Assembly (NCBI GenBank): GCA_021432635.1
Contig: MU270016.1
Span: forward strand, 1,321,905-1,385,904
Length of the DNA: 64,000 nt
Origin: Thozetella sp. PMI_491
Lineage: Eukaryota > Ascomycota > Sordariomycetes > Chaetosphaeriales > Chaetosphaeriaceae
Reading direction: 5' to 3'
Position numbers and translations under genes: made by a program. The notes beneath the pieces were generated by a model. That model did no database searches, was not told the origin of the DNA, and was given only the letters and a program-made list of their open reading frames with translations. Of the stretch, positions 1,232 to 54,242 are shown one piece after another. Numbering within the stretch: position 1 is the stretch's first letter; the number at the start of each line of letters is the position of its first letter.

Positions 1232-3053
1232 ATGACCGCCACCCCACAGGACTTGATGTATCCCGCGAGCAAGGAGAAAGATGTCGAGATTCCTACGAGC
1301 TCTGCGTCGATTCATGTTGCAGAAATGGACGAGAAGCCTCGCACGGGCCTTGAGAAGCTGGGTTACTGGGCACGCAAGCTGGACTCGTACGGCGTTGAAG
1401 CACGTGGTATCGAACGCGTGCTCCCCGAAGAGCGGCGCAAACAGAATTGGCTCGCACTCAGCTTGATCTGGTAGGCTTCTCCCGGCAGCTCTAACCAAAG
1501 ACGAGCATGCAGGAGTTCTGACTTGGTCTTTTAGGGCAGCGGGCGGCATGAACCTCAGCAGTTTCTCGGTCGGGGTGTACGGCGTACTATTCTACAACCT
1601 GACGTTGGGCCAGACCCTCGGCATCGTTTGGGGCGTAAGCGCACTTGGGTCCCTGTGCTCCGCATATATGGCTACATTCGGTAAACGAAATGGTCTGCGA
1701 GCTCTTGTCAATTCTCGATTCGCATTCGGTTGGTATGGCTCCATGGTCATGGCTTTTCTAAATGGCTTCACCGAAGTTGCCTACGGTACAATGGATTGTA
1801 TCCTGGGCGGCCAGACACTAGAGACGGTGAGCCAAGGCCGCCTGCCTTTGCCTGTCGGTATCGTTCTTATTAGGTAAGGTTCGGATCCTATTTTGATTTC
1901 GGCCAGCGAACTAACCCCCCAAGTGCTATCTCCTGGGTCATCGCGACTGGAGGATACAAATTCATACACTGGTATTCTAGGATCGCCCTCATCTTTCCGA
2001 TGCTCTCCTTTCTGGCTATGTACGGCGTTGTGGGACCCAAGTTTACCACCGTTGACACGACTTACGAGGAGCCTGCTGAAGATCGCTCCGGACAGATGCT
2101 GTCGTATATTGCCATCATCTATGGCGCATATGCCGGGGTAAGGACCTATGCAGCGTCTTAGCGGTATTGTGACTAACTTTTGGATACGCCTCAGTGGATT
2201 CCGGTCTCTGGAGACTACTACATTTACTTCCCCGAGAGTACCCCAGATTGGAAGGTCTTGGCCATGTCGTTCTTTGGCATTTGGGTCCTCCCTTCGTTCG
2301 CCGTCAGCTGCGGTGCCGGCTTCGCATCCGCCTTGTTGACCGACCCTGACTGGCTAGCACGATACGATGACTCTGTCCCCAATTTGTACGTATCATCCCT
2401 CCCATTAGTTGTGGTCGGTGCTAAGTAGGTTTTGACATCCGGATAGCGTCGCCCAAGGCCTCGAGCCGATCGGAAGTGCTCGCTTCTTCTTTGTCTTCCT
2501 TCTTGGATGGTCGCTCATCTCAAACAACATCTTTAACCTCTATAGCATCGGTCTATCTGTGCCGTTGCTGGGTGATTGGGCGATCCGAATCCCCCGATTC
2601 GTCTGGACGTTGCTCGGCTCTATCCTCATTACTGTGCTGTCCGTGGTCGGACGGAATTCATTCACGGCTGTGCTTTCCAATACCATGGCTTTGATAGGCT
2701 ACTGGTCGATCATCTACTTCGCTATCTTCGTCATTGAGTTTGTCTTCATTCGACCCAAGTTTGGCTTAGACTTGACGGCCTGGAACGACCGGAGTAGGTT
2801 GCCGCCGGGCTATGCAGCCGGTCTAGCTTTCTGCTTCGGCATCATGGGGGCTGTATTGGGCATGTGTCAAACTTGGTACACTGGGTATGTGTCTTACTCC
2901 TGTTCTATTACGCCAAAGGCTAACATATGCAGCAAAATTGGTGCCTTGATTGGTAGCCTTGGGGGGGATCTCGGCACAGAGCTGGGATTGGCCTTCACAG
3001 CGGTTGTATACCCCGTGTTCCGCTACATCGAGTTCAAGAAATTCGGACGATGA
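1232..3053 (+). CDS. NCS1 family purine/cytosine-type permease
   Basis: Six exons join in phase: 1232-1470, 1535-1873, 1924-2137, 2195-2385, 2447-2884 and 2933-3053, giving 513 residues, the usual NCS1 length. The first membrane segment carries the family signature AAGGMNLSSFSVG. Later segments include LISAISWVIATGGYKF and the conserved WxPxxxDYxxY-like WIPVSGDYYIYFP. About twelve hydrophobic segments follow the family layout, and the short cytosolic C-terminus ends EFKKFGR. The family (Fcy2/FcyB type) imports cytosine, adenine, guanine, hypoxanthine or related compounds with protons at the plasma membrane; the exact substrate cannot be told here. The neighbour at 15-652 is a likely adenosine deaminase, which supports a role in purine uptake and salvage. 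All introns have GT donors and AG acceptors and are 49-64 nt long. Confidence 0.9.
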
Positions 3054-3278
3054 AATGAGTTGCTGCGGCAAGGGAGGCGACCTAGGTATATCTGGAGTGT
3101 ACAGTTTTTTTTCTTCTGGGGTGCGTAGCAATTCGTATATTTGTATAGTTGTTACAAGTGATCTGAGCAGACACGTCGGGTTCCTTTGGTAATCTACCTA
3201 ATCCCTTTGTTTTCTTACTCGCTAGTAATACAGGATCTTGCTCAACGCGGCATAGCCACAAGGAATCTCACGCCAAAC

Positions 3279-5165
3279 TTAGGATATTGTTCCCCGAGCG
3301 CCCATCCCTTCTGTAACTGATGTCTTGATTACATTTGCGGCCCAGTCTACGACACCATCTGTTCTCCTGTTTCCCCAAGAGCAGGAGCGCAGTTGTTCCA
3401 TGAGCATAAAATTCTCGCTTGGACTCTTCAACTTCTCCTTGAACTCAACAACCGTGATGGCGGCCGTTGAACACATCAGCGATGCGAATGCCGGCCGCAC
3501 CATCCCATCTGTTGTAGCACACTTCAGGTATATTTCCATAATCTCAAAGGAGTGATCTAGGGACAAGCCGACCAGGTCCTCGGTAAGGGTCTCAATTTCC
3601 TCCATGCGGAGACTCAGGTCGCTGGGGTCTGATGTAGGGTCGGTGAGAGTCTTGAGGGTGTGCCGGCAGTGTATAAGCTGAGCGGAGCTATATGCGAATG
3701 CCAGGCCTAGCGATGAGTCGGCTTCTGTGGAAAATAACATTGCCGTTAGCGAGCCCAAATATTTATCCTCCGATTGCAATACCTATCAGTTCGCGGTTCG
3801 TTTCCCTCCACTGCTCGATTGGGCCACCGCCGAATGTGAAATTTCTCGGGCTTTTAGATATAACAAGGTCGTACAGAATACAATACAATTGCGACTGGAC
3901 AGCCAGGGCCTGGCTACAAGAACCGATGGCGTAATTCTGCGGATCTGAGACATGATCGCCGAGCAGAGTTCTGCTGAAGACCGGGGGCCGCCCAGTACCA
4001 ACAACGAATCTTATCTTGGTCAATACTTCATTCTAAAAGGTCCCCCGCTCTTAGAAGGGGCCATACTGCATATGCGTGAGACATAGAGCGTTCCAGACGT
4101 CAATAGAAGCCTGGCGCGCCGGGTTGTTGCTGTCATCGGAGCTCGTAGTGTCAATGGTGAGCATCCCGTGAACCAAGCCCATCCCACTCATTAACCAGCT
4201 GTCTATATATCTCTCCTTTTCGTGCGGAACGAGATCCCAGATGGCGAACAAAAGAAGAGCCCGAAGCGTATCGAGAGAAAGAGGCGAGCATAGCAAAACC
4301 TTCTCGGCCAGGTGCCTAGCGTGGGTATAGAGGTCGACATGGAGCTTCGAATCCCAGAGAGCCGGGATCGTCAGCAAACCGAGCAAGAGGAATGCAGCAA
4401 AGAGCACTGGGGATTTAGTGCGGATCTCCCATGGATCGATATCCAGTCCGTAGCGCTTCAACGGAAGGGATCGCAAGCTAGCGACAGTCAGCGTCCACCC
4501 GGAGCGAGGAATAGCTTGCTTACCTATCAAAAAGTGTGTGGCAGAGGTTTTCGGTTATTAGGCCTTGAGACAAGCAATCTGGAATGGGTTTCTCTGGAGG
4601 AACTCCTAGCCCGTTGCCTGTTATAATGGTCTCCAAATCCCGCACAACACTTATTGGTGCTGTTCGAGCATACGCCTGGGTACGCTCGTAGAGGGATGCA
4701 TCGTCTTCCAGGTGAAACAATGGCATGGCTTGTTCGGTAGCGGCATGGCTGCGTGGCGTGTCCTCACGCAGTGGAGCTGCCGTGTTTGTCAAGGCGCGTA
4801 TCTCAGCAACCGCTTTGTCGATAGCGGCCAATCTATCACTGGGTGAGATGGCACCCCTGCCATTCGGATAGGAACAGCTAACCTTTGGTGGATCTCGGCT
4901 CCAGGTTGGGAGGTACTGGGCCTGCAGTCGACAGCTTGCGCAGGGGAAGTGGCTACCGACGGTGCGTGGGCCTCTGGGAACGAGCATCGGAGTCTGCGGG
5001 AAGAGCAATCACTAGTTAGTAGCTACTAGCTAGGTTGCGGCCGGATAGTACGTGCCTAAGGCGGTCGCAACGGTGGCAGATATCCAAGCCAGGCAGCTTT
5101 TCACATCTCGTCCGTAGCCGGCGACAGCTGGCACAAGACGTTGCTCGGCGCTTGGCGGGCGGCAT
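3279..5165 (-). CDS. Zn2Cys6 fungal transcription factor
   Basis: The start is the ATG at 5165 (MPPAKRRATS). Exons 5165-5052, 4882-4524, 4477-4067, 4009-3783 and 3724-3279 join in phase to 518 residues. The zinc cluster reads C11-x2-C14-x6-C21-x8-C30-x2-C33-x7-C41, but the sixth cysteine appears only if intron 1 runs to the CCAAAG acceptor (5051-4883). A nearer acceptor, CCCGCAG just after a GCTACTAAC branch site, also keeps the frame open but inserts residues and separates C41. The middle region contains FVVGTGRPPVF, matching the conserved block of the fungal-specific transcription factor domain. The protein is probably a nuclear DNA-binding regulator. It is divergent from the 2-oxoglutarate oxygenase at 5527, a likely but unproven target. 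Confidence 0.8.
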
Positions 5166-13827: not shown

Positions 13828-14675
13828 TCATCCACTACAGTACAAGGACGCCATCGTCTTAGAGAAGTCCTTTCCCAGGATCTCTTGGTGCTTGTAAAGC
13901 TCATCCAGACCCTGTTTCAGGATTTCCGTGCCCTTCTGTAAGTCCTCATCCACCATGTTCATGGCCAAGCTAATGCGTAGTCCTCTAGAAGGGTATAGAA
14001 ATTAACCCTTGTGCATGCAAAGGGCGGCTAGCCAGGGCCCGGATACGCCAGGATACGCCTTGAGGACCTTCGACGATAGTCTTCCATTTTTTTGCCTAAG
14101 GCCACTGTACGGCCCATGAGATCATTCCGGTCAAGTATCCCGATCGTAGCTGTCGCTGCCGCAATGGCCATTGGGGTGAAAGCGAAGCTCAATGCAACTT
14201 CGAACGCTTAACGAGCGATATGACGGCCGCATTGCCGAGAATGAAGGATTGTGACGCCGGTGATTGACTTCCCCATGGTCACAATACCAGGCTTAAAGTC
14301 GTCGCCGATGTGCTGGTAGGACAGAAACTTGCCCGTATTTCCAGCGCCTTGGTGGACTTCGTCAACAATGCATAGCACGTTATACTGTCGGTAGAGGCCG
14401 TAAAGGTCTCTCGCGTATGCGATCTCTTGACAGTCAGAGACGTTCGGTGGAGATACTCCAAGATCACTGCTGCAATCCTCTCGTGGTGTTCGCTCAGGGA
14501 TCGTATCGCAGCCTCGAGATCCAGATATGGGAGCGGCTCGCCGGTCGTTGGATTGACGTTCGTCATCGCTTTGCTGTCCAACCCGTACTCCGTTTGCTTG
14601 ATAGCGCTGTCCATCAACCCCCAGACGGTCGACCCCAATCCGTGGTAGGAAGAACCAACAGCTAGAGTTAGGCAT
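13828..14675 (-). pseudogene. Class-III aminotransferase (ornithine-aminotransferase-like) relic
   Basis: Pieces of one fold type I, class-III aminotransferase follow each other on the minus strand in different frames. SSYHGLGSTVWGLMDS to RIAAVILEYLH lies at about 14660-14450. Next comes EIAYARDLYGLYRQYNV with CIVDEVHQGAGNTGK and GIVTMGKSITG, which carries the cofactor-binding lysine. FILGNAAVIS lies near 14240, then FTPMAIAAATATIGIL, and finally RGLRISLAMNMVDEDL to the stop at 13828. At least three frame changes separate the pieces. The C-terminal junction near 13990 could be a real intron; the one near 14450 cannot. The N-terminal third (about 130 residues) was not found. The gene is best read as broken. 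Its place beside amine oxidases suggests it once took part in amine or amino-acid breakdown. Confidence 0.72.
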
Positions 14676-14906
14676 GAATGGCGATATAAGTTAAGATATT
14701 CCGTGATTAGTCCAGCAGTTATGTTTAAAGTGTGATAGAATCTGAGTATCAGGACACTCGACTAAACGATGATTTAAAGCATCGCTGACAGCCTTCGCCG
14801 GGTTTGCCAGCGCTACAACATATATGCTCCAACAGGCAGCCTGGAGACGCCCAATGAAGGGGTAAGTAAGGTGTTCTGTTTCATTCCGTATAGTGAACAG
14901 CCCATG

Positions 14907-17455: not shown

Positions 17456-18946
17456 TTATGATTTTCCAGAACCTAGAACTGCAATAACTTCTTCGGCGCC
17501 CCGGACACCCGATCGCACAGCGCCCTCCATGTAGCCCTTCCAGACCATGGCAGTTTCGGTACCTACGAAGTGAATCCTGTCAAATGGCTGACAAATGGCC
17601 TTTCCTGGGTCTCCGCAAAGACCACCGGGCATCAGGACCGGAGATGGGGCACCTCTTGCCCATGGGTCCTTTGCCCACTCCTTCTCGATTACATTGACGG
17701 GGGCCGGCACGTCAACGCTCTTCTCTCGTGCGGCGGCACACATGACAGCCTCGAATTGCGCAGTGACGAGTCGGCGGCGCTCTGCGCGCGACCATTTCGA
17801 CCATGCTCGGCCAGGGTCACCGACAATGAAGCAGGTGATGCTATACTGCCGGTCTGCCTCGGAGCATGTGTCTCGCGAGAACGAGATCGGCCCGGAGGCT
17901 GACCTCATGACGCCGCTTAGCCCTGCCTCACGCCACCACGGACGATCGTAGACGAAGATGGTCTTCGCGTAGTAGCCGAGAGCAGTATTATCCCCTAAGT
18001 TTTGCTTGCTTTCCGGAAGCGGAGGCTCGAAGGTAACCAGGGAATAGAGAGGCGTTGGCACGGACACGATTACCCTCTCAGCTTCGAACACGGGTCCGGA
18101 GTTGGCAGTTTCTACCAGGCAACCACTCTCGGGTTGCTGGGTTATTTTGGTGACAGCGGTAGACAGCCGAACGGTATCTCCAGGAAGCTTCTCGGCGAGG
18201 CGAACCGAAAAAGTTTGATTGCCTGTCAAGAGGCCAAGAGATTAGCATGGAAAAGCGGCCCGGTTGGGTTGCGAGGGACAGATACCTTGTCGGTTGCGCA
18301 AATATTGGCCGCCATCCTTCTGGTCGGAACTCATGTTTTCTAGGCCGGTACCGCTCTTTATGTAGCTGATCATGAACAGGCTACTAAGCTCGCTCGGCTC
18401 GACGCCCAAAAACGCCACGGACAGCGAACTGGCGACGAAAGCCCCTACACTTCCCGAGCAATATCGCTCTGCGTACTCTCCGAATGTCATCGCGTCTAGC
18501 TCTGCGGCACCCGGTCCAAGATGTGGGTTTTCGAGATTCGACGCCTCTACATGTGCCACGAATGTAGCCAGGAACTTGTGCGCGGCTTCCACCTCCTCCG
18601 GGTTTGTCATGTCTGGGGTTCCGTATGGCAAGCGGATAGTAGAACCGTCGGGCCGCTGCTCCACGTCATCGCCAGCTGCCCTCTGTTCAATCAGGTCGAA
18701 GCCGAACTCGCGGGCAAGGGCGTACATCTCGCTCTGGTTGGTGTCGTTGAGCCACGCTGCGCCGAGATCGACGACTCCGCCAAGAGAAGACGCGGGAACA
18801 CTGCAAGTCTTTCCGCCAACACGGTCCATGGCCTCGAGGACCACGACACTCAGGCCGGCTTCGTGCAATCGTACAGCTGCGCGCAAGCCCGACAGACCCG
18901 CGCCAACGACGATGACGTCTGTCTTCACGGGAGTTGGAGGTGCCAT
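17456..18946 (-). CDS. Flavin-containing monoamine oxidase
   Basis: Exons 18946-18286 and 18222-17456 give 475 residues, close to fungal MAO-N size. The N-terminal dinucleotide-binding motif is VIVVGAGLSG (G15, G17, G20), followed by VVVLEAMDRVGGKT, the second flavin-contact loop. The C-terminal flavin-binding block is IHFVGTETAMVWKGYMEGAVRSG. DRPWWREAGLSG and GPISFSRDT are typical substrate-domain blocks. The enzyme should oxidise a primary amine to an imine, giving aldehyde and ammonia after hydrolysis and releasing hydrogen peroxide. No N-terminal signal peptide and no C-terminal tail anchor are seen, but the ending GSGKS is short and unremarkable. The single 63-nt intron falls after the first base of a glycine codon, at the same place and phase as intron 2 of the paralogous fusion gene at 19932. 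Confidence 0.9.
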
Positions 18947-19931
18947 AATTGTCTGCTACAATGCTCAGAACTGTTTGCGGTGGATAAATGGAGGTTCCTT
19001 TGACTTGATGATAGAAAAGGTAATATATGTACCCAAAGTTTCCGTACCTACGTAAGAAGCTGTTTTTCACCAGGCTTCCATCGAACCATTCGCACGTCAG
19101 GCTGCTGATGTGGGCGGCGGGATTCCGCAGCGAGACGGGAATCGGTTTTTGCGGCGTGCCGGTGCAGTTTGGCAAACGCGCGCTATGCCCCACGAGTCGG
19201 AACCCGCGGCCAGCTCAAATTGGCTATGGTATGCTGGACGCGCGGCGAACTCACCAGCGGCCTCCGCGGAATCTTACTTACAGCTCGTCGCTTGGTGAAC
19301 TCGCACTTGGTTTGTGCTAGACTTGTGAGTCGTCTCATGGCGGGCTGCTAGAGTGTTGAGCGGTCTCGGGTTAGAGATCTCCCCGGGGCTCCCAGATCCG
19401 GCAGGCATCAGCAAAGGAAGCTGGAGGCTTATCTTGGGTAGCTGCAAAGGCGCGCTTACAAGCGCGATGACCCACCACCAGACACTCTTAACCCCAGACG
19501 CCCCACCACCATAATGCAAACTCGCGGTTAGATACTAGTGAACCAATATGTATGAGCGCATCGCTCTATGCCAAGACGCTGGGTATGGGCAATAGGGACT
19601 CGACGTCTACGCCGCGTCGTAAGACGATTGTGGCTCAACAGAAACAAATTGGCCCTCTGTTCTACATCGAATCACTTCCTTGCCTTGGATTGATTAGATC
19701 GCCAGGAACCGTAGTAGATTCCAGCCACATAGTGGAGGGAAATGATCACTTAGCCATTCCGTTGCCTTAGGTGACATCACTCCCGGGGTCCACGGGATCC
19801 GAGGCAGGTTGGATAAGAGCTCCTGTGTGGCATCCCGAATTTTCGAAGTTGTTTCCTATCGTTACCAGATGCAAGGCTTCTCGTCCTAGATTCTCGTTAT
19901 CTAAATTCAAGTCAAACCCTCTTGTTCAAAG
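18947..19931. promoter_or_regulatory. Shared divergent promoter, monoamine oxidase / RidA-oxidase fusion
   Basis: 985 bp between two divergent amine-oxidase genes. The open frames inside it have no recognisable features. Joint control of both oxidases from this spacer is inference. Confidence 0.4.
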
Positions 19932-21978
19932 ATGGCTCCTCGGGACGTCCATCCCGTCAGCAACTTCGTCGATGGCCGCGAGGTTGCAGATCCCCAATGG
20001 TACTCGCATGCCGTCTCCCTGGAGGGCAATGGTCGGCTTATCCTTACGTCCGGCCAGGTGGGCCAACGCAAGGATGGTAGCTGGCCTAAAACTAGCGGCG
20101 AACAAATCAAGCAGGCTCTTTCGAACCTCGCCGACGTGCTTTGGGCCGCCGGTGCTTCGTCACGCGATATCGCTCAGCTGCGTTTCTATGTCGTCGACTG
20201 GGACTTGAAGAACGGCATGGAACTCGTTGAGCCTGTCATCGCCCTTCTGACCGAGACGTATGGCACGACATACCGCCCCCTGACGACCTTGATCCCGGTC
20301 CCTAAGCTGGCCTTCCCCGAAGCTAAATTCGAGATTGAGGCGGTTGCCAGCGTAGGCGGCTTGGCTCGGCCGTGGAACGCCTCTGACGGACACTTGAGAT
20401 TACCGAGTGCTGTGGCGACTGCTCATCCTGTCCCTCCCGTGGAAGTCGACGTTGTGATCGTGGGAGGTGGGTTCTCAGGGCTTACAGCAGCCTATGACGC
20501 ACATCAAGCGGGATTGAAGACGGTGCTGCTAGAGGCTAAGCATCGTGTTGGCGACCGAAGTCGATCTCAGGCTCTGAAGAGCGGGCCTGGCTTTGTCGAG
20601 ATGGGCGCCACTTGGATCAACAAGACTACCCAGCCAAGTATCTACGCGCTGACGCGTAAGTTCGGCCTGGAGACTTCTGAGCAGTACACGACTGGAGACG
20701 TTGTATTTCAGGATCACAACGGGAAGGTATCTCGACTCCCACAGGGTGAGCAAGAGGCAAGAGTGAGTAGTTATACCACTACATAAACCGATTGCTGTTA
20801 CCTTCAAGGGAATGCTGATGAATTCTCTGTAGTTCGATGACCCGCAGTCAGCGCAGAACTTGTTCAAAATGGTGGTCGATATCGAAACAACCACAGCATC
20901 GATGGACATCCACCGGTGGGAAGATTTCCCTGAGGACCAGGACGTGTCGTTTGCAGAGTGGTTGGCCCAGAAGGACCTATGGCACGACCCCGCCATTAAG
21001 AGCTTCAGCAGCTTCTTGACCGCTGCCGTGGTCGGTCGGGAGCCAGATGAGGTTGGCGCGCATTATTTCCTCGACTATATCAAGTCCGGCGGAGGATATA
21101 TCAGCCTCACAACCGAGGGGGAGATGGGCGCGCAGTCACTAAAAGTCAAGAACGGCAAGTCTTCCCAGTCTGTACCCACGATGCACCCACCAAGATGAAT
21201 TCCACGCTGACTAGGCCTCTCACCAGGTACATCGGCCATCGCCATGGCACTCGCTAGCTCCATGCCTCCTGGTAGTGTAATGATCCACAGCCCGGTGGAG
21301 AGCATCACGCAGAGTGGAAATGTCGTCGAGGTTACGACAAGCGCGGGCAGCAGGTACAAGGCCAAGAAAGTGATCATGACTATTCCCACGAACACTTACA
21401 GCGAAATCAAGTTCTCGCCTCCTCTTCCACCCGCAAACCGAGCTCTTGTCTCGCGCACCAAGCCCGGCGTGTACGCCAAGATGCTCCTGACATATAAGGC
21501 CCCATGGTGGCGCGACGCGGGGCTCGTAGGAAAGTTCACCTCGTTGGTTGGGCCCATTTGCTTCAGTTGGGACGTCTGTGACGCCTCGCTGGAGCAGTAC
21601 AGCCTAGCCCTTTTCGTCGCGGGGAACATTGCGGCGCGGTGGCATTCGCTGAACGAGCTCGAGCGCGAGGAGGCGATTATCGAGCACCTAGCCAAACTAG
21701 TGGGGCCTAAGCTTGCCGACAAGGCCCGTGACATTCTCGAGGTCAACTGTGTTGAGTGGACCAAGGAAGAATACATCGGGGGTGCGCCGACGAGTGCGAT
21801 AGGGCCCAAGTTGCTAAGCAAATACGGCTACGCCATGCGACAGCCCTTTGGCCACGTTCACTTCGGTGGTGGCGAGATGGCACACGAGTGGAAGGGGTAC
21901 CTAGAAGGTGCAGTGACCTCTGGCCAAAGAGCCGCCAGGGAGGTTACGAGTCTTCTAGTCGGAACGGCTCCGTCTTAG
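19932..21978 (+). CDS. RidA-amine oxidase fusion protein
   Basis: Exons 19932-20762, 20833-21154 and 21227-21978 join in phase to 634 residues. Residues 1-140 form a RidA/YjgF/UK114 domain: WYSHAVSLEGNGRLILTSGQ, LSNLADVLWAAGAS, RFYVVDWD and AKFEIEAVAS. R115 lies where the family has its substrate-binding arginine, although the loop after it is a few residues longer. A linker (141-171) leads to a flavin amine oxidase beginning DVVIVGGGFSG (174-183) and ending HFGGGEMAHEWKGYLEGAVTSG. RidA proteins hydrolyse reactive imines and enamines. Amine oxidases make imines, so one chain could oxidise an amine and clear its product. In the second flavin loop the usual GGR is GDR (VGDRS, 206-210), which may weaken binding. 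Intron 2 uses a GC donor (GCAAGT). A paralogous single-domain oxidase is divergent on the left. Confidence 0.9.
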
Positions 21979-27674: not shown

Positions 27675-29506
27675 TCACCGGCGGTAGATTCCTACGGCGT
27701 TGTCGTTGATGAGCTTGATTCCCTTGGCCCTCCAGCTGTCGCTCTCAGCGTGGCTAGTCACGTTGGCGTCGAAGAGGAAGTCCTTCGGGTCATTGAGGTC
27801 GTAGCGCGGCCAGGGCTCCACATTGGAAGGCCGCGAAGCATACGTGTTGGGATCTAGGTCGTGGATAAAGCTGACCCAAGACGAGGCCATCAGGTCTGAC
27901 AGGTCGAAGTAGCTCTGGGGCCGCCCGAGCAGGGTGTTGGTTGCGTCCGGCCAGTAGCCCACGCCCAGGAAGTTGTGGAACACAAATGCGATCTCCTTGA
28001 AGTGGCCGACGCCGACATAGGCGGGCACGAGGGCAGGGATGGCATTGAAACGGTAGGCATAGACAGGCACACCATACTCAGCCCACTTCTCCGCAACGCG
28101 CCGCCTCGGGGCAATGAAGATCTGGTCGCTGATGTAGCTAACCAGGCGGCGCCACTGAGCGCCGTAGGGAGGTCCCATGATCGTGTCGCCCAGGCTGGCA
28201 ACTAGCTCGACCGAGGGGTCATGCGGGTAGGCGTCGGCAATAAGGTCCTTGAAAGCCTCCGGGATCAACCTACCCGAGTCTAGGGCAGCCCTGAAATCGG
28301 CGGTAGTGTTGATGCCGGTTGGCGTCGACGTAGTGCCCTCGTCGCTGTTGGCGCCGATCAACAGAGGCACCCTCACGAACTGTCCGTTCGCCACCTGGAT
28401 GCTGCTGTAGGTGCGGACGAAGTCGCCGTCGATGACGGGGGCGAACCCTCCACTGAGGGTGGAGTTGATAATATTGTTGAGGGTAGTGTATGGCACCTTC
28501 CTCAGGCACTGTAGCTTGTCAAATGAGTCCCAGCAGCTGGCCTGCTTAACCAGGGAGTCGAAGTTGGGCTGGAACTGCTGCGATCCGTTCTGCGTGGAGT
28601 AATAAATCGGTCCACCAGACTGTGCGATGGCGGCACGGAAAAGGCCATCATCACGTCCACCGTAGGCATTAAGCTGCATACAGGGTTAGCTGGAACTCAA
28701 TGCCAAGTTTAGCAGAAGGTGGAAAGTCAAACTCACCTGAAAGCCAACGGAGGCAGCTCCTGCAGACTCGCCCCAGATGGTAACTTTCTTCGGATCGCCT
28801 TTGCCAAGTCAGTGAGATACGCTATTAAAATTGACAATATCCGGCCAACTCACCGCCAAACGAGGCAATGTTTTCCTGCACCCAGTGGAGAGCGAGACGC
28901 TGGTCCCGGAGGCCCATGTTGGTCAGACCCTCGCCGGTTACCTGGTCGCCGGCCAGGAAGCCCCAAGCACTGAGGCGGTAATTGATTGCAACGGCCATGA
29001 TAGGCTTTCCAACCTTCACCGACTGCTGTACGATGAATGACAGATTGTAGCGCTGGTCCGCGTTCCCGCCGTTGACGAAACCTCCTCCGTGGATCCAGAA
29101 ACCAATCGGAAGGGAATCATTCTCGTAGCCCTTCGGACGGACCACATTTAGCGTAAGACAGTCCTCGGAGACATCAAATATCGTCTGGTCTTTCTGTTGC
29201 GCGAGGTTAGTCATGCGACTACGGCGGACAGGATGGACCGCTTACTCCATAGCCAACACACTCCGGCGAGAACGAAGTCACGTCCTTGACGCCAGCCCAG
29301 GTCGCGTTGAGGGACTGGGCCTGCTGGAACCGCAGGTCTCCAACGGGAGGCTGCGCATACGGGATGCCCAGGAAGTGGTCCTGGTCGTACTCGGGCGAGT
29401 AGGCCCCACGGTATGTGCCGTTCTTGACCTGGACGATCGGGGGGGAACCGTGCGGTACGCAAGCGGTGGCAGCGAGGGTGGCCGCCAGAGGCAGAAGTTT
29501 CCACAT
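27675..29506 (-). CDS. Secreted type-B carboxylesterase
   Basis: Exons 29506-29246, 29193-28854, 28798-28737 and 28673-27675 join in phase to 553 residues, the usual family length. The N-terminus MWKLLPLAATLAATACV is a signal peptide, so secretion is likely. Type-B landmarks occur in order: LGIPYAQPPVGDLRF, EDCLTLNVVRPKG, FWIHGGGFVNG (oxyanion hole), NYRLSAWGFL, the nucleophile elbow GESAG (S212), then IGANSDEGT for the acidic residue and GVGHFKEIAFVF for the histidine. Such enzymes hydrolyse esters of lipids, phenolics or xenobiotics. Several N-glycosylation sequons are present. Introns are short and canonical. It shares orientation with the reductase at 25285 but is 1.4 kb away, so a common function is uncertain. 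Confidence 0.9.
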
Positions 29507-32149
29507 ATTGAAGAAGCGTCACGCCGTGCGGTATGAAAGCCACGAGGATTTCCAAGCTGGGTGGTAGGAGTGCCACTCGGTCTGGCCAGGAGCGGCGCCT
29601 CGGCCGTCTTTTCTATCCCCAGACACCCCGCCAAGATCCCCAGCTTTCGGCCGCCCTCTATCCCACGTGCCCAGCGGTCTCCAAATCCCTGGTTCTCGTC
29701 GGTTACCGGTTCCCGGGACCGGGTACTCAAGTTGTAAACAGTTGCCTCCCCCCAACCTCGATTTTGGTCAAGGCTCGCTTGTAAATCCCCCTCAAGCCAA
29801 TGGTCTTGCATTCCCAATAGCCGGAGACTTGTCCAAACGCTCGGAGATTAGTGACTCCATGAAGATTCCCCTCTTCCACCCCGGGGACACCCCATAAAAA
29901 CAATAGCTAGGGTGAACTGGCCCCGCGATTTAAAATTGGGCCCATGGGGTAACAAGGAGAGGCTCGGGCTTGTACCGCACTGCAAGATCCTCCTCCGCTA
30001 GGAGAGTAGGTCTTAGCACGAGAATCCCTATCCGATTTGCTTTTCAAAGTGTCTGCATAGCTACCCGTTGATGTCTACAATGACTTGAAGAATCGACCTC
30101 AAAGACATCATTGTAGAGGTAGGCCAGTTTCGCGGTTGCACAACGACCATCCCCAACTCTTGGGAGAGGGGAAAGGTGGAGGAGAGGCAGTTGGGTGGGC
30201 CTTCACCTCACCGCACAATTGTCATAGCACGGAAGCTCGTCGGACCACCATTCCGGCATTGGGTGACTACCGGGGGTTTAGTCGTCGCCCCGCATTCCCC
30301 TCCTATGTATGCGTCCGGCTACAGAGATCAAGACAATCCGGGGGAAATCCCGGAGACTATACGCAATTTGGTGTTCCTATCCATAGCCGCCCGGCCGCGC
30401 AATCGCTCTTGGAGACCCTATACGAGGATAGAGGTGGCCAGTGGATCCGCTGCCAATACCACCAAGGTGCCTCTAGACTATTGCTACGCACTTGTTACTT
30501 CGACCTTCCATTTTAGCGCTAAACCTCTGCTATTCTAGCTTGACCTTACCTGGGCCAGGGTACTCATGCTTTGCCAAGCGGCCTGGGAAAATGGCGTGCT
30601 ATCTTTTTCACAACGGCTTCGGCACTAGAGTAAATTAATTGCACGAGGAGCTAACTGCAGAAAGATTGGCGAGATTTACATATATTCTAAGCCTACCTAC
30701 AGGGGTTCTACCATGAACCAGCCGCATGCTAGGGGAAGAAGCTGCTGCTGCCTTCTCAAGCCACCGCTGCTAGCTAGCATCCCCTAGCTGAGGGAGGCTA
30801 GCGGCCCTAAAAGTGACGCCGTGGGGCTGGCCGATCAAGCCGGGAACAATCCGGTCTGTCTTTCGTAGTCACTCTATAGATATATGTAATAGTTATCAGT
30901 CATACATTCATTGTGTACTGCCTGGGGAGACTAGCGTAAGAGGACTGGTAGCCGTTGTAGCTAAATGTTCACTTTGGTTGCGAGCAACCCTGCCCATGCG
31001 TGCCTTGCTGTTCACTGCTGCGGCTCGCTCGACGGGCGGGAATCCAATTGCACGAGGGAGTAAAATACTGCGTGCAAGAAAGGGCAGGGCCTTTGGTCGG
31101 CCCCATGCAATCTGCATGGTCTATTGTAGCTCAACCTTTACGCGCTCCGCATCCTTCTCCGTCTCCCGGGCCGTCCATAGCCGAGCAAGGATCACACGGC
31201 AACCTCCGTTCCTATTGCATAAACTCGGATACTCGTTGTGAATTCGGCAACAAGTTTGTCATAGAACAATAAACCTTTGGTATGAGACATTAATAGGGTA
31301 TCAATGAAGAAGTGATGGTCTAGTACGCGTCCGACATCCTGAGAAATGCCAAGTCGTGGGGTGCCACTTTAATCAGAGTGCGTGTACATCTGTACAGCTT
31401 AGGACTTTTGCTAAGCTGGGGCTTCGAGATAGTAATTGAAGTTCCACTTTCTGTAAACTAAACCCAAATGCTGGCTGCCACGTATGGGCTGGCATCCTTT
31501 ATTAGCTTGGAAGTCGCAGGGGAATTGATTGCGATATACAATGATGATTCGGGTCGCATCTCCCGCCAGAAATGGCCACTACATCTTCGCAAAGCGAATC
31601 CTTTTCAGGACAGGATGCTGCAGATTTATCTCGATGCCCACCCTACAGCCCTTCTACTCCGGTGCCTTTGAACCTAAATTAAACTGGAAGCATGTCCCGC
31701 ACCTTCGCGTAATGATACCAGGCGCTAAAGGGAGACTCCCAGGCGTTTTGGCAGGGCACTTATCGTTTGGGAATAAGTAATGAAGTAGTACATCAAGCCG
31801 GGGAGTGCACAGCGACTTGCGGTTTGCGAGTACGTAGAGTTGGGATGCTAGTCGATCTGGTCGATGTGAATATGGAGGCGGGCTGGGCGAGATGTCCCCA
31901 AGTAAGCCGGATGCTGGTTCTGTGGCTAAGTCCTCGGCGGGATGTAGGTGAGAAGCATTGGAGGCATTAGAGGAGAGAAGACCATCCCTAAATACGGTAC
32001 CTGTGTAAGATCCCCTTTGCCTCGATCTAACTATTATTATCCGACGCCTACGATTCAAGTTGTAGCCAGAGTGTAGGACCTGTTCCCACGCGGCTCTAAC
32101 CCATGGTGAAAAATATATTTGCTTGTCTCTGTGTACCCTTTTCTCCTCT
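29507..32149. other. Gene-free stretch left of the retrotransposon
   Basis: 2.6 kb without a supported gene. Open frames of 120-180 codons (29278-29817 minus, 30085-30538 plus, 31654-32058 minus) have shadow-like composition and no domain. The minus strand just left of 32150 still carries the last codons of the DUF4246 gene tail, ending at a stop near 32101 (see the interrupted tail at 39418). Confidence 0.4.
32145..32149. repeat. Target site duplication, left copy (CCTCT)
   Basis: CCTCT directly precedes the left LTR and is repeated directly after the right LTR at 39418-39422, a 5-bp duplication as expected for LTR element integration. Confidence 0.85.
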
Positions 32150-52302: not shown

Positions 52303-54242
52303 ATGAGTTTTAGGAAAGAGTCACCATTCGTGGGTAAGACGTGGACAAAGTCAATCGGCGTAACAGACGACATTTTCTATTGTGGAAAGTGCCAAAATGA
52401 GCACCAAACAAGTACTCAGTAAGCATTTACAATATCTTCCGATTCCCCGTGCGAAGGGGTCGTGAACTTCATCAAAAACATTGGCTAATAGTATCTAGAG
52501 AACCGAAATGTTGCGACGACAACCTGCAATGGATTCCAACAGATGTGAAACGTTGCATGCCGCCCCAAATAGAAAACACACCCGATTCTATCCAAATACC
52601 GTATGAATCATATCTCGGTGCTATCCTTGGGGGACAATTCCGCCTTGGTCGGGTAGTCTGGGAGGATGAAGACAGCCATGAAAAAGTTTATGCCGCCAAA
52701 GCGTTACTTGCCCCCAGCACGCAGTACGAGGCTAGATCATATGACTTCTGCGCCCTTCCCAAAAGTCTTCTAGCCGCTCGCAAGCGACACTTCAGGCGGC
52801 TACGTACAAAGTCGGATTGTGAGATCGATCAAGCTGGAATGAAATTCCTCGTTTACCGAAAATGTTTACCGGTATCCAACGCAAGTCGAGAAGTAGAGCA
52901 CATCAGCCCGCACCGCAACAAGTTGGAGCCCAAGGACCTCAGCGAGGGAACTCGCATGTTTTTCGGAGATTTCGAAGTGCCTGGAAGTTCGATCATCGCG
53001 CCAAACCCCGACCTTTTGCAGGAAATAGAGCAGCGTTTGTCTCGAAGTACAGTTGACGACCTACCACTGGGATGTTTGGTTGGGGGCAAAAAGCGAGAAG
53101 TCGATTATAACTGCGAGAAACACCAACGGTGCAGATACCGGAGACGGAAACCAAGAAAGCAACCAAGTCCGGATACGACAAATCTGCTACAGAATATGCA
53201 GCTTTTCTCTGTCATGCGACACAGGGATGATATTCCAATCCAGACCCAACTTGACACCGAAGTCAGCGTTAAGGCCACAAATGATGATTGGAAAGAAACA
53301 TTATTTTCTGCGGCCAAAGATGGTAAATATAAGGTCATACACGTATTACTCGATAGGCTCTCCAACCTTGAAGCGAGGGATAAGTCGGATAGGACTCTGC
53401 TCATGCTCGCGGCCGCCAATGGAAATGATAGAGTTGTCCGATTATTACTCAACAGAGGCGCCAACATTGAAGCAAATCATTGGAATTGGGGCACACCACT
53501 CTCTTCTTCAGTCATGTACGAGAGAGCTGTAGTTGTGCAGTTACTACTCGATAGAGGCGCCGACCTTGAAGCAAAAAATAGGATGAAGGAGACAGCACTC
53601 TTGATAGCAGCTAAGAGAGGAAACTACACAATGACCNNNNNNNNNNNNNNNNNNNNNNNNNNNNNNNNNNNNNNNNNNNNNNNNNNNNNNNNNNNNNNNN
53701 NNNNNNNNNNNNNNNNNNNNNNNNNNNNNNNNNNNNNNNNNNNNNNNNNNNNNNNNNNNNNNNNNNNNNNNNNNNNNNNNNNNNNNNNNNNTACAATGAC
53801 CAAGCTACTACTCGATAGAGGCGCCGACCTTAAAGCAAAAAATAATAACAGGGAGACAGCACTCTTAATAGCGCCTAGAAGAGGAGACGACATAATTACC
53901 AAGCTACTACTCGATAAAGGCGCCGACCTTGAAGCAAAAAATAATAATAGGGAGACAGCACTCTTGATAGCGGCTAGAAGAGGAGACGACAAAATTACCG
54001 AGCTACTACTCGACAGAGGCGCTGACCTTGAAGCAAAAGATCGCAATGGAGAGACAGCACTCTTATTAGCAGCTGAGAGAGGAGAAAACACAATTACCAA
54101 GCGACTACTCGACAGAGGCGCCGACCTTGAAGCAAAAGATTATAATGGGGAAACAGCACTCTTGATAGCGGCTAGAAGAGGAAACGATACAATTACCAAG
54201 CAATTACTCAACAGAGGCGCCGACCTGAAAGCTAAAAAATAG
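52303..54242 (+). CDS. Ankyrin-repeat protein, with assembly gap and terminal frameshift
   Basis: The main frame runs from about 52457 to a TAG at 54240-54242 and is open across a 155-N gap. A 5' exon (52303-52418, MSFRKESPFVGKT...FYCGKCQNEH) joins in phase only through a 38-nt intron, so it is tentative. The N-terminal half (to about residue 270) contains GAILGGQFRLGRVVW and KVYAAKALL, which faintly recall the glycine loop and lysine of a kinase N-lobe, and then conserved-looking ARKRHFRRLRTKS; I cannot name it. The rest is at least nine ankyrin repeats of the form RGADLEAKNNNRETALLIAARRG. The last four are nearly identical in DNA, a sign of recent tandem copying. Past the TAG, a +1 frame continues ankyrin-like sequence to 54408, so an extra A in an A6 run truncates it. 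Confidence 0.7.
53637..53791. other. Assembly gap (155 N) within ankyrin repeats
   Basis: N run flanked by almost identical repeat units (AAATGAC-type junctions on both sides). The frame is kept at the given length, but the true length is unknown because assemblers collapse such repeats. Confidence 0.98.

Follow-up and report, generated by a model that had tools for sequence, protein, structure and literature searches.

What does a Rid domain do at the head of a fungal amine oxidase, and can it act on the imine that the oxidase would release? The question is raised by a gene in the window, by which we mean the whole 64,000-nucleotide stretch of Thozetella sp. PMI_491 DNA that was analysed; it lies on a contig of 2,039,263 bases (C2) in a 72.3-Mb assembly. 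A preliminary description had read this gene as a RidA imine deaminase fused to a flavin amine oxidase, possibly a self-clearing enzyme that oxidizes an amine and hydrolyses the imine in one chain.

A Rid domain and an amine oxidase in one chain

On the plus strand, an exon at 19932–20762 that encodes the Rid domain, a linker and the start of the FAD-binding oxidase (from the frame and Pfam) is joined in the spliced frame to exon 2 at 20833–21154 and to exon 3 at 21227–21978, which runs up to the stop codon, giving a coding sequence of 634 residues with a single terminal stop. Pfam places the Rid domain (PF01042, 56.8 bits against a cut-off of 27.3) at residues 23–140 (19998–20351) and the oxidase (PF01593, 190.7 bits, cut-off 19.8) at residues 181–624; the frame and Pfam have the flavin amine oxidase domain beginning at residue 172 (20445–20762 in the first exon) and extending into exons 2 and 3. 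One open exon (open reading frame 19905–20786) holds the Rid domain, the linker and the oxidase's opening GxGxxG motif, so the fusion is independent of splice prediction. With both domains above their cut-offs and their join within one exon, the claim of a single chain holds. Two separate genes were dismissed, since the open exon runs across the join; a further 48 proteins concur.

The two splice junctions fared differently. A database protein from the same fungus (P0001, 622 residues; 98% identity at 100% cover) represents the same gene and crosses intron 2, a GC–AG intron at 21155–21226, exactly as the 21154/21227 junction of the preliminary description has it. For intron 1, which that description placed at 20763–20832, P0001 uses another donor: it lacks residues 266–277 (20727–20762), which fits a donor at 20727. 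Most relatives have these 12 residues in some form, and in an 81-row alignment column 268, which lies within them, carries a letter in 70 rows and arginine in 62 of these. Because this column is mostly arginine, the relatives favour the donor at 20763, and the 20762/20833 junction is backed by them against the evidence of P0001.

A stand-alone amine oxidase of 475 residues (P0088; 17456–18946, minus strand, intron at 18223–18285; Pfam and frame) starts 985 bases from the fusion and is divergently oriented. Its GT–AG intron falls at the same codon and in the same phase as the GC–AG intron 2 of the fusion, which suggests that the two oxidases of the window share ancestry.

Spread and history of the fusion

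Searching a protein database with the window protein gave 87 matches among the candidates that share most words with it, and the first 80 were aligned. In the resulting 81 rows, 50 cover more than 70% of residues 10–145, namely the window protein and 49 database proteins from Pezizomycotina, one of which (P0001) is the window's own gene. The fusion is thus no chance join, and the domain pair proves to be conserved across fungi; the genera named include Trichoderma, Fusarium, Talaromyces, Penicillium, Aspergillus, Exophiala, Cladophialophora, Fonsecaea, Blastomyces, Alternaria, Colletotrichum, Beauveria and Neofusicoccum. Among the 38 rows in which both domains are near-complete (P0001 excluded; 703 pairs), mean pair identity is 0.48 for the Rid domain, 0.56 for the oxidase and 0.22 for the linker, and the Rid and oxidase identities correlate at 0.84. 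Purifying selection appears to act on both domains.

A protein search with the Rid domain by itself, whose reach is set by shared 5-residue words, returned just two short proteins: P0208, which also contains the start of an oxidase domain, and P0209, of 183 residues with no listed domains. A scan of prokaryote genomes with patterns from three close sequences gave 57 pattern matches and no confirmed relatives.

The Thozetella genome itself holds further members. Searching the assembly for PF01042 gave 28 exon matches. Against the fusion profile, the window scored 230 bits, a gene on contig C3 89.6 bits, a gene on contig C49 58.6 and 35.8 bits over two exons, and the next match 43.8 bits. The C3 gene (L047, 4307–6200) is a second Rid–oxidase fusion, of 607 residues with PF01042 and PF01593 both above cut-off; it is flanked by a gene for an aldehyde dehydrogenase on one side and one for an MFS transporter on the other. 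On C49 (L046, 2251–6890), three genes lie within 5 kb: an unfused oxidase (2251–3726), a Zn2Cys6 regulator and, on the opposite strand, a stand-alone Rid of the fusion type; a short-chain dehydrogenase is found upstream. A Rid tree of 53 rows splits the fusion, C3 and C49 Rids from eight others (bootstrap 97, SH-aLRT 71) and pairs C49 with C3 on long branches (92 and 77). The oxidase tree likewise pairs the C49 oxidase with the C3 fusion on long branches (SH-aLRT 95), and when either is omitted, the remaining one still groups with rows of the neighbouring oxidase's type (neighbour-type rows), outside the window's clade.

That tree has 87 rows, with neighbour-type rows thinned from a 115-row set and used as the root. 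Of the 71 rows in the window's oxidase clade, 46 are fused, the basal lines among them; the 25 unfused rows fall into nested sets (six from Colletotrichum and 19 others). Without C49, the unfused label requires two changes, and the well supported branches force two. As reconstructed here, the tree shows a fused state basal in the clade and two losses of the Rid domain. In three Verticillium proteins (P0048, P0054 and P0062), the stretch SRPWTPADGHL stands between a hydrophobic start and the oxidase. Because it is close to the linkers of fused proteins (SRPWTEADGHL in P0002, ARPWNASDGHL in the window), this stretch is, as far as sequence can tell, a remnant of a fused ancestor.

We then compared the starts of these proteins, counting a start as hydrophobic if a 10-residue mean Kyte–Doolittle value reached at least 1.6 within the first 35 residues and before the FAD-binding strand. 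By this measure, whose threshold and before-strand limit were set after a first version and which is applied to related rows, a signal-peptide-like start is present in 18 of the 24 unfused rows with an intact start (all six from Colletotrichum and 12 of the other unfused set), in none of 48 fused rows and in none of 114 neighbour-type rows; the remaining six unfused rows lack one at that threshold. With a threshold of 1.9 before the strand, the unfused count is 15 of 24. The first version, at 1.9 over the whole first 35 residues, had given 17 of 24 unfused, 0 of 48 fused and 108 of 114 neighbour-type rows, the last figure arising because the hydrophobic FAD-binding strand itself lies within the first 35 residues; N-terminal extensions of neighbour-type proteins have a median of 9 residues.

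The C termini were scored for a peroxisome-like (PTS1-like) tripeptide, [SAPC][KRH][LMI]. Such an end is seen in 15 of the 44 fused rows and in 1 of the 120 neighbour-type rows. Among 30 unfused rows it occurs in four (P0070, P0071, P0075 and P0077), each of them a piece whose FAD-binding start was not located. The end is SKL in P0002 and P0003 and SRL in the C3 fusion; a PTS1-like end is absent from the window protein, which ends in APS. On a pattern that was noticed post hoc, is based on hydropathy and covers about two independent losses, fused forms appear to reside in the cytosol or peroxisome and most unfused ones to be exported, and retention of the Rid domain seems to go with an oxidase that acts inside the cell. 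Fusions in two oxidase lineages of this genome, the split pair of neighbours on C49 and retention of the domain in proteins without an export-like start together make for a strong tie between this oxidase-linked Rid type and amine oxidases.

The arginine site and the proposed function

In RidA, Arg105 contacts the ligand's carboxylate through a hydrogen bond or salt bridge, and its change to alanine nearly abolishes activity (PMC4433059). We located the corresponding position in two ways: three MAFFT modes aligned the 50 fusion rows with TdcF, YjgF and 3vcz, and a profile of 16 fusion Rid domains was aligned with PDB sequences. The profile runs without a gap from P116 to L126 along the Arg105 stretch of TdcF and sets Thr118 (codon 20283–20285, plus strand; also placed there by MAFFT) on Arg105. 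Across the 50 fusions, some rows of which are partial, this column holds threonine 43 times, serine three times, and valine, methionine, alanine and glutamate once each, the glutamate in a row (P0065) that is badly aligned there; arginine never occurs. Serine is also found at the arginine site in about 10% of RidA proteins, according to the same source (PMC4433059). The position of Glu120, occupied in the window by Glu134 (codon 20331–20333, plus strand, by MAFFT), is glutamate in 48 of 50 fusions, with two gaps, and that of Tyr17 is tyrosine in 39 of 50. The tryptophan typical of Rid4 and Rid7 is absent from the Arg105 site in all 50.

These features set the domain apart from the RidA deaminases. 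The fusions share with E. coli TdcF and YjgF the Pfam family, the glutamate at Glu120 and mostly the tyrosine at Tyr17, but they mostly have threonine in place of Arg105, and against the NCBIfam model of Rid detoxifying hydrolases (TIGR00004) the window protein scores 28.7 bits, below the cut-off of 106.25. The RidA identity given in the preliminary description does not stand in its canonical sense, and a canonical RidA deaminase was dropped as a candidate for want of the catalytic arginine. Replacement of Arg105 with retention of the glutamate is the combination that marks the Arg-less subfamilies Rid4–Rid7 (PMC4433059), and the best PDB matches of the fusion-Rid profile, 5v4f (asparagine at the site) and YjgH/1pf5 (tryptophan), are Arg-less too. 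Rid4 and Rid7 differ in having tryptophan where the fusions have threonine, the fusion Rid is attached to an oxidase, and the published Rid4–Rid7 subfamilies are described as mainly bacterial (PMC4433059). Within the Thozetella genome, the site is isoleucine in the C3 fusion and threonine in the C49 Rid; where it is visible in other Rids, it is arginine in L002 and L005, tryptophan in L010, leucine in L021 and alanine in L008.

The preliminary description had named loss of the RidA arginine, together with a substrate site modelled as unable to bind an imine, as refuting its reading; the arginine is missing from all 50 fusions. Because Arg105 binds a carboxylate, however, its loss argues against 2-imino acids and not against imines that lack a carboxylate, which the products of a monoamine-type oxidase would do. 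The arginine loss may therefore reflect the substrate rather than a lost function.

Our preferred reading, to which we give close to an even chance, is that the protein is an intracellular FAD amine oxidase whose tethered Arg-less Rid domain handles the oxidase's own imine. The oxidase, of the monoamine oxidase or aminopolyol oxidase type, would convert an amine to an imine and H2O2; the tethered domain would bind the released carboxylate-free imine, so that Arg105 would not be needed, and would either speed its hydrolysis or keep it off cell components. In oxidases that look exported, the Rid domain would have gone and a signal-peptide-like start taken its place. Cell location, export, substrate, imine binding and catalysis are all what we infer in this scheme. 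Of the self-clearing enzyme first proposed, the conserved chain and the lasting Rid–oxidase link survive, and the canonical RidA domain does not.

Several observations speak for imine handling. Conservation of the Rid domain is close to that of the oxidase (0.48 against 0.56); bacterial genes for RidA or Rid3 are often found in clusters with those for FAD amine oxidases (PMC4433059); and Rid proteins accelerate the reaction of the flavoenzyme DauA (PMC5619798). Retention of Glu120 lends weak support, since RidA mutants at Glu120, like those at Tyr17, have near-normal activity in the account given by PMC4433059. Against imine handling stand the lack of Arg105 in all 50 fusions, given what its change to alanine does to RidA, and the finding that a Salmonella Rid7, which has no such arginine, does not hydrolyse a leucine-derived imine (PMC4433059). 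Two further points count against the necessity of such help: neighbour-type oxidases have neither a Rid domain nor a signal-like start and are apparently intracellular, and the imine of the Aspergillus niger oxidase AnFAO is reported to hydrolyse spontaneously (PMC9415688).

The main rival, a real but doubtful possibility, is that the Rid domain is not a catalyst and instead trimerizes the oxidase or serves as a regulatory or substrate-presenting module, a role that Arg-less Rid4–Rid7 proteins may also have. The absence of Arg105 from every fusion and from the nearest PDB relatives speaks for it, as do the prediction that Rid4–Rid7, which lack the arginine, are unable to hydrolyse imines and the typically trimeric state of Rid proteins (both from PMC4433059). 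However, the domain was lost twice, each time with a signal-like start instead, which suggests that folding and assembly of the oxidase are independent of it, and the link is specific to amine oxidases even where the Rid is a separate gene.

We regard as unlikely the alternative that the domain is a functional imino-acid deaminase, with a displaced basic residue, Arg or Lys at 115, three positions upstream, standing in for Arg105. Residue 115 is indeed arginine in 31 and lysine in 11 of the 50 fusions, yet it is glutamine in five and another letter in three; all three MAFFT modes, like the alignment of the profile with PDB sequences, put T118, not R115, on Arg105; L010, with tryptophan at the site, likewise has arginine at 115; and canonical proteins have no basic residue at that position.

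In the oxidase half, the GxGxxG residues G178, G180 and G183 are kept. Lys469 aligns with the flavin-proximal lysine of MAO-B (Lys296), and 76 of the 77 rows represented in this column have lysine. Ala571 aligns with the MAO-B cysteine that binds FAD covalently; that cysteine is absent from the window protein, and a covalent FAD cysteine is not known to be required across the whole flavin amine oxidase family. The GGR motif at the FAD site is broken: Asp208 (codon 20553–20555, plus strand, by alignment) replaces the second glycine, and of the 75 rows represented in this column, 73 have glycine and two aspartate, the latter being the window protein and P0001, which are one gene. G208D, A436T and K455N are the window's only departures at the 93 columns conserved to at least 95%, and relatives depart at 0 to 10 such columns (66 rows), a range on which a pseudogene was rejected. 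That the window's copy is impaired by Asp208 while the architecture works elsewhere is highly improbable in our judgement: a change confined to this one gene and two further departures at highly conserved columns would fit, but the reading frame is open, Lys469 and GxGxxG are intact and three departures fall within the range of the relatives.

Known enzymes and the genomic neighbourhood

The preliminary description knew of no described function for this architecture, which may in fact be known already, since the patented full-length Exophiala spinifera APAO may have a YjgF-like N terminus. A provisional APAO sequence scores 95.8 bits against the fusion-Rid profile and has cysteine at the Arg105 site; the same provisional sequence would be 32% identical to the window fusion and 48% identical to the neighbouring oxidase P0088, which would place the window fusion in another oxidase clade. 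Should APAO indeed carry such an N terminus, the fusion is a known arrangement, of which the window protein is a member from another oxidase clade.

Among described enzymes, APAO, a fungal FAD amine oxidase that acts on hydrolysed fumonisin, is the closest (PMC9415688), and one review describes the E. spinifera enzyme as only speculated to be an amine oxidase (PMC9726736). AnFAO resembles the window type in being a fungal FAD monoamine oxidase that turns a primary amine into an imine; it differs in the spontaneous hydrolysis reported for that imine, and its description, in the available part of PMC9415688, mentions no Rid domain. In the open-access literature, a scope that excludes patents and most subscription papers, we found no account of the fusion family, its missing arginine or the exchange of Rid domain and signal.

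PMC4433059 describes the function of the Arg-less half of the Rid family as unknown. A conserved Rid–oxidase fusion names a reaction to which this Rid type is coupled, and in the apparent exchange of Rid domain and export signal there is a natural test of whether cells require assistance with the imines of their own oxidases. We put forward only tentatively, as possible rather than probable, the wider view that the fusions represent a Rid type that would use carboxylate-free imines without Arg105, fused or adjacent to an oxidase, retained only where that oxidase is intracellular and swapped for a signal peptide on export. If true, this would give the Arg-less Rid type a function and provide an evolutionary test of the pre-emption of imine damage. 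The family could also guide a search for fungal amine-detoxifying enzymes akin to those studied for fumonisin clean-up.

Homologues of both oxidases of the window, those of the neighbour being taken from the best 120 of 3290 matches, occur on contigs of equal length in Rhizodiscina lignyota, Eremomyces bilateralis, Talaromyces stipitatus and Fusarium solani, and in F. solani their locus tags are ten apart; this suggests that the fusion and the neighbouring oxidase may form a conserved pair. Pfam identifies an amino acid permease, an acyltransferase, an aldo-keto reductase, a carboxylesterase and a Zn2Cys6 regulator among the nearby genes of the window. By their predicted families, these would fit general amine uptake and processing, and we claim no fumonisin cluster.

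Some minor features of the window may be recorded. Pieces of a type B carboxylesterase lie at 27675–29518 on the minus strand, near both amine oxidases, and a set of esterase and amine oxidase genes has some apparent resemblance to fumonisin breakdown. At 14208–14906 on the minus strand, pieces of a class III aminotransferase stand in different frames, one of which matched PF00202; the gene is either broken or split by introns. A frame of ankyrin-like repeats at 52401–54242 contains a stretch of X that corresponds to a run of N. Between 32001 and 40000 the GC content is 0.21–0.25, against 0.45–0.56 elsewhere, perhaps a tract of repeat-induced mutation (RIP).
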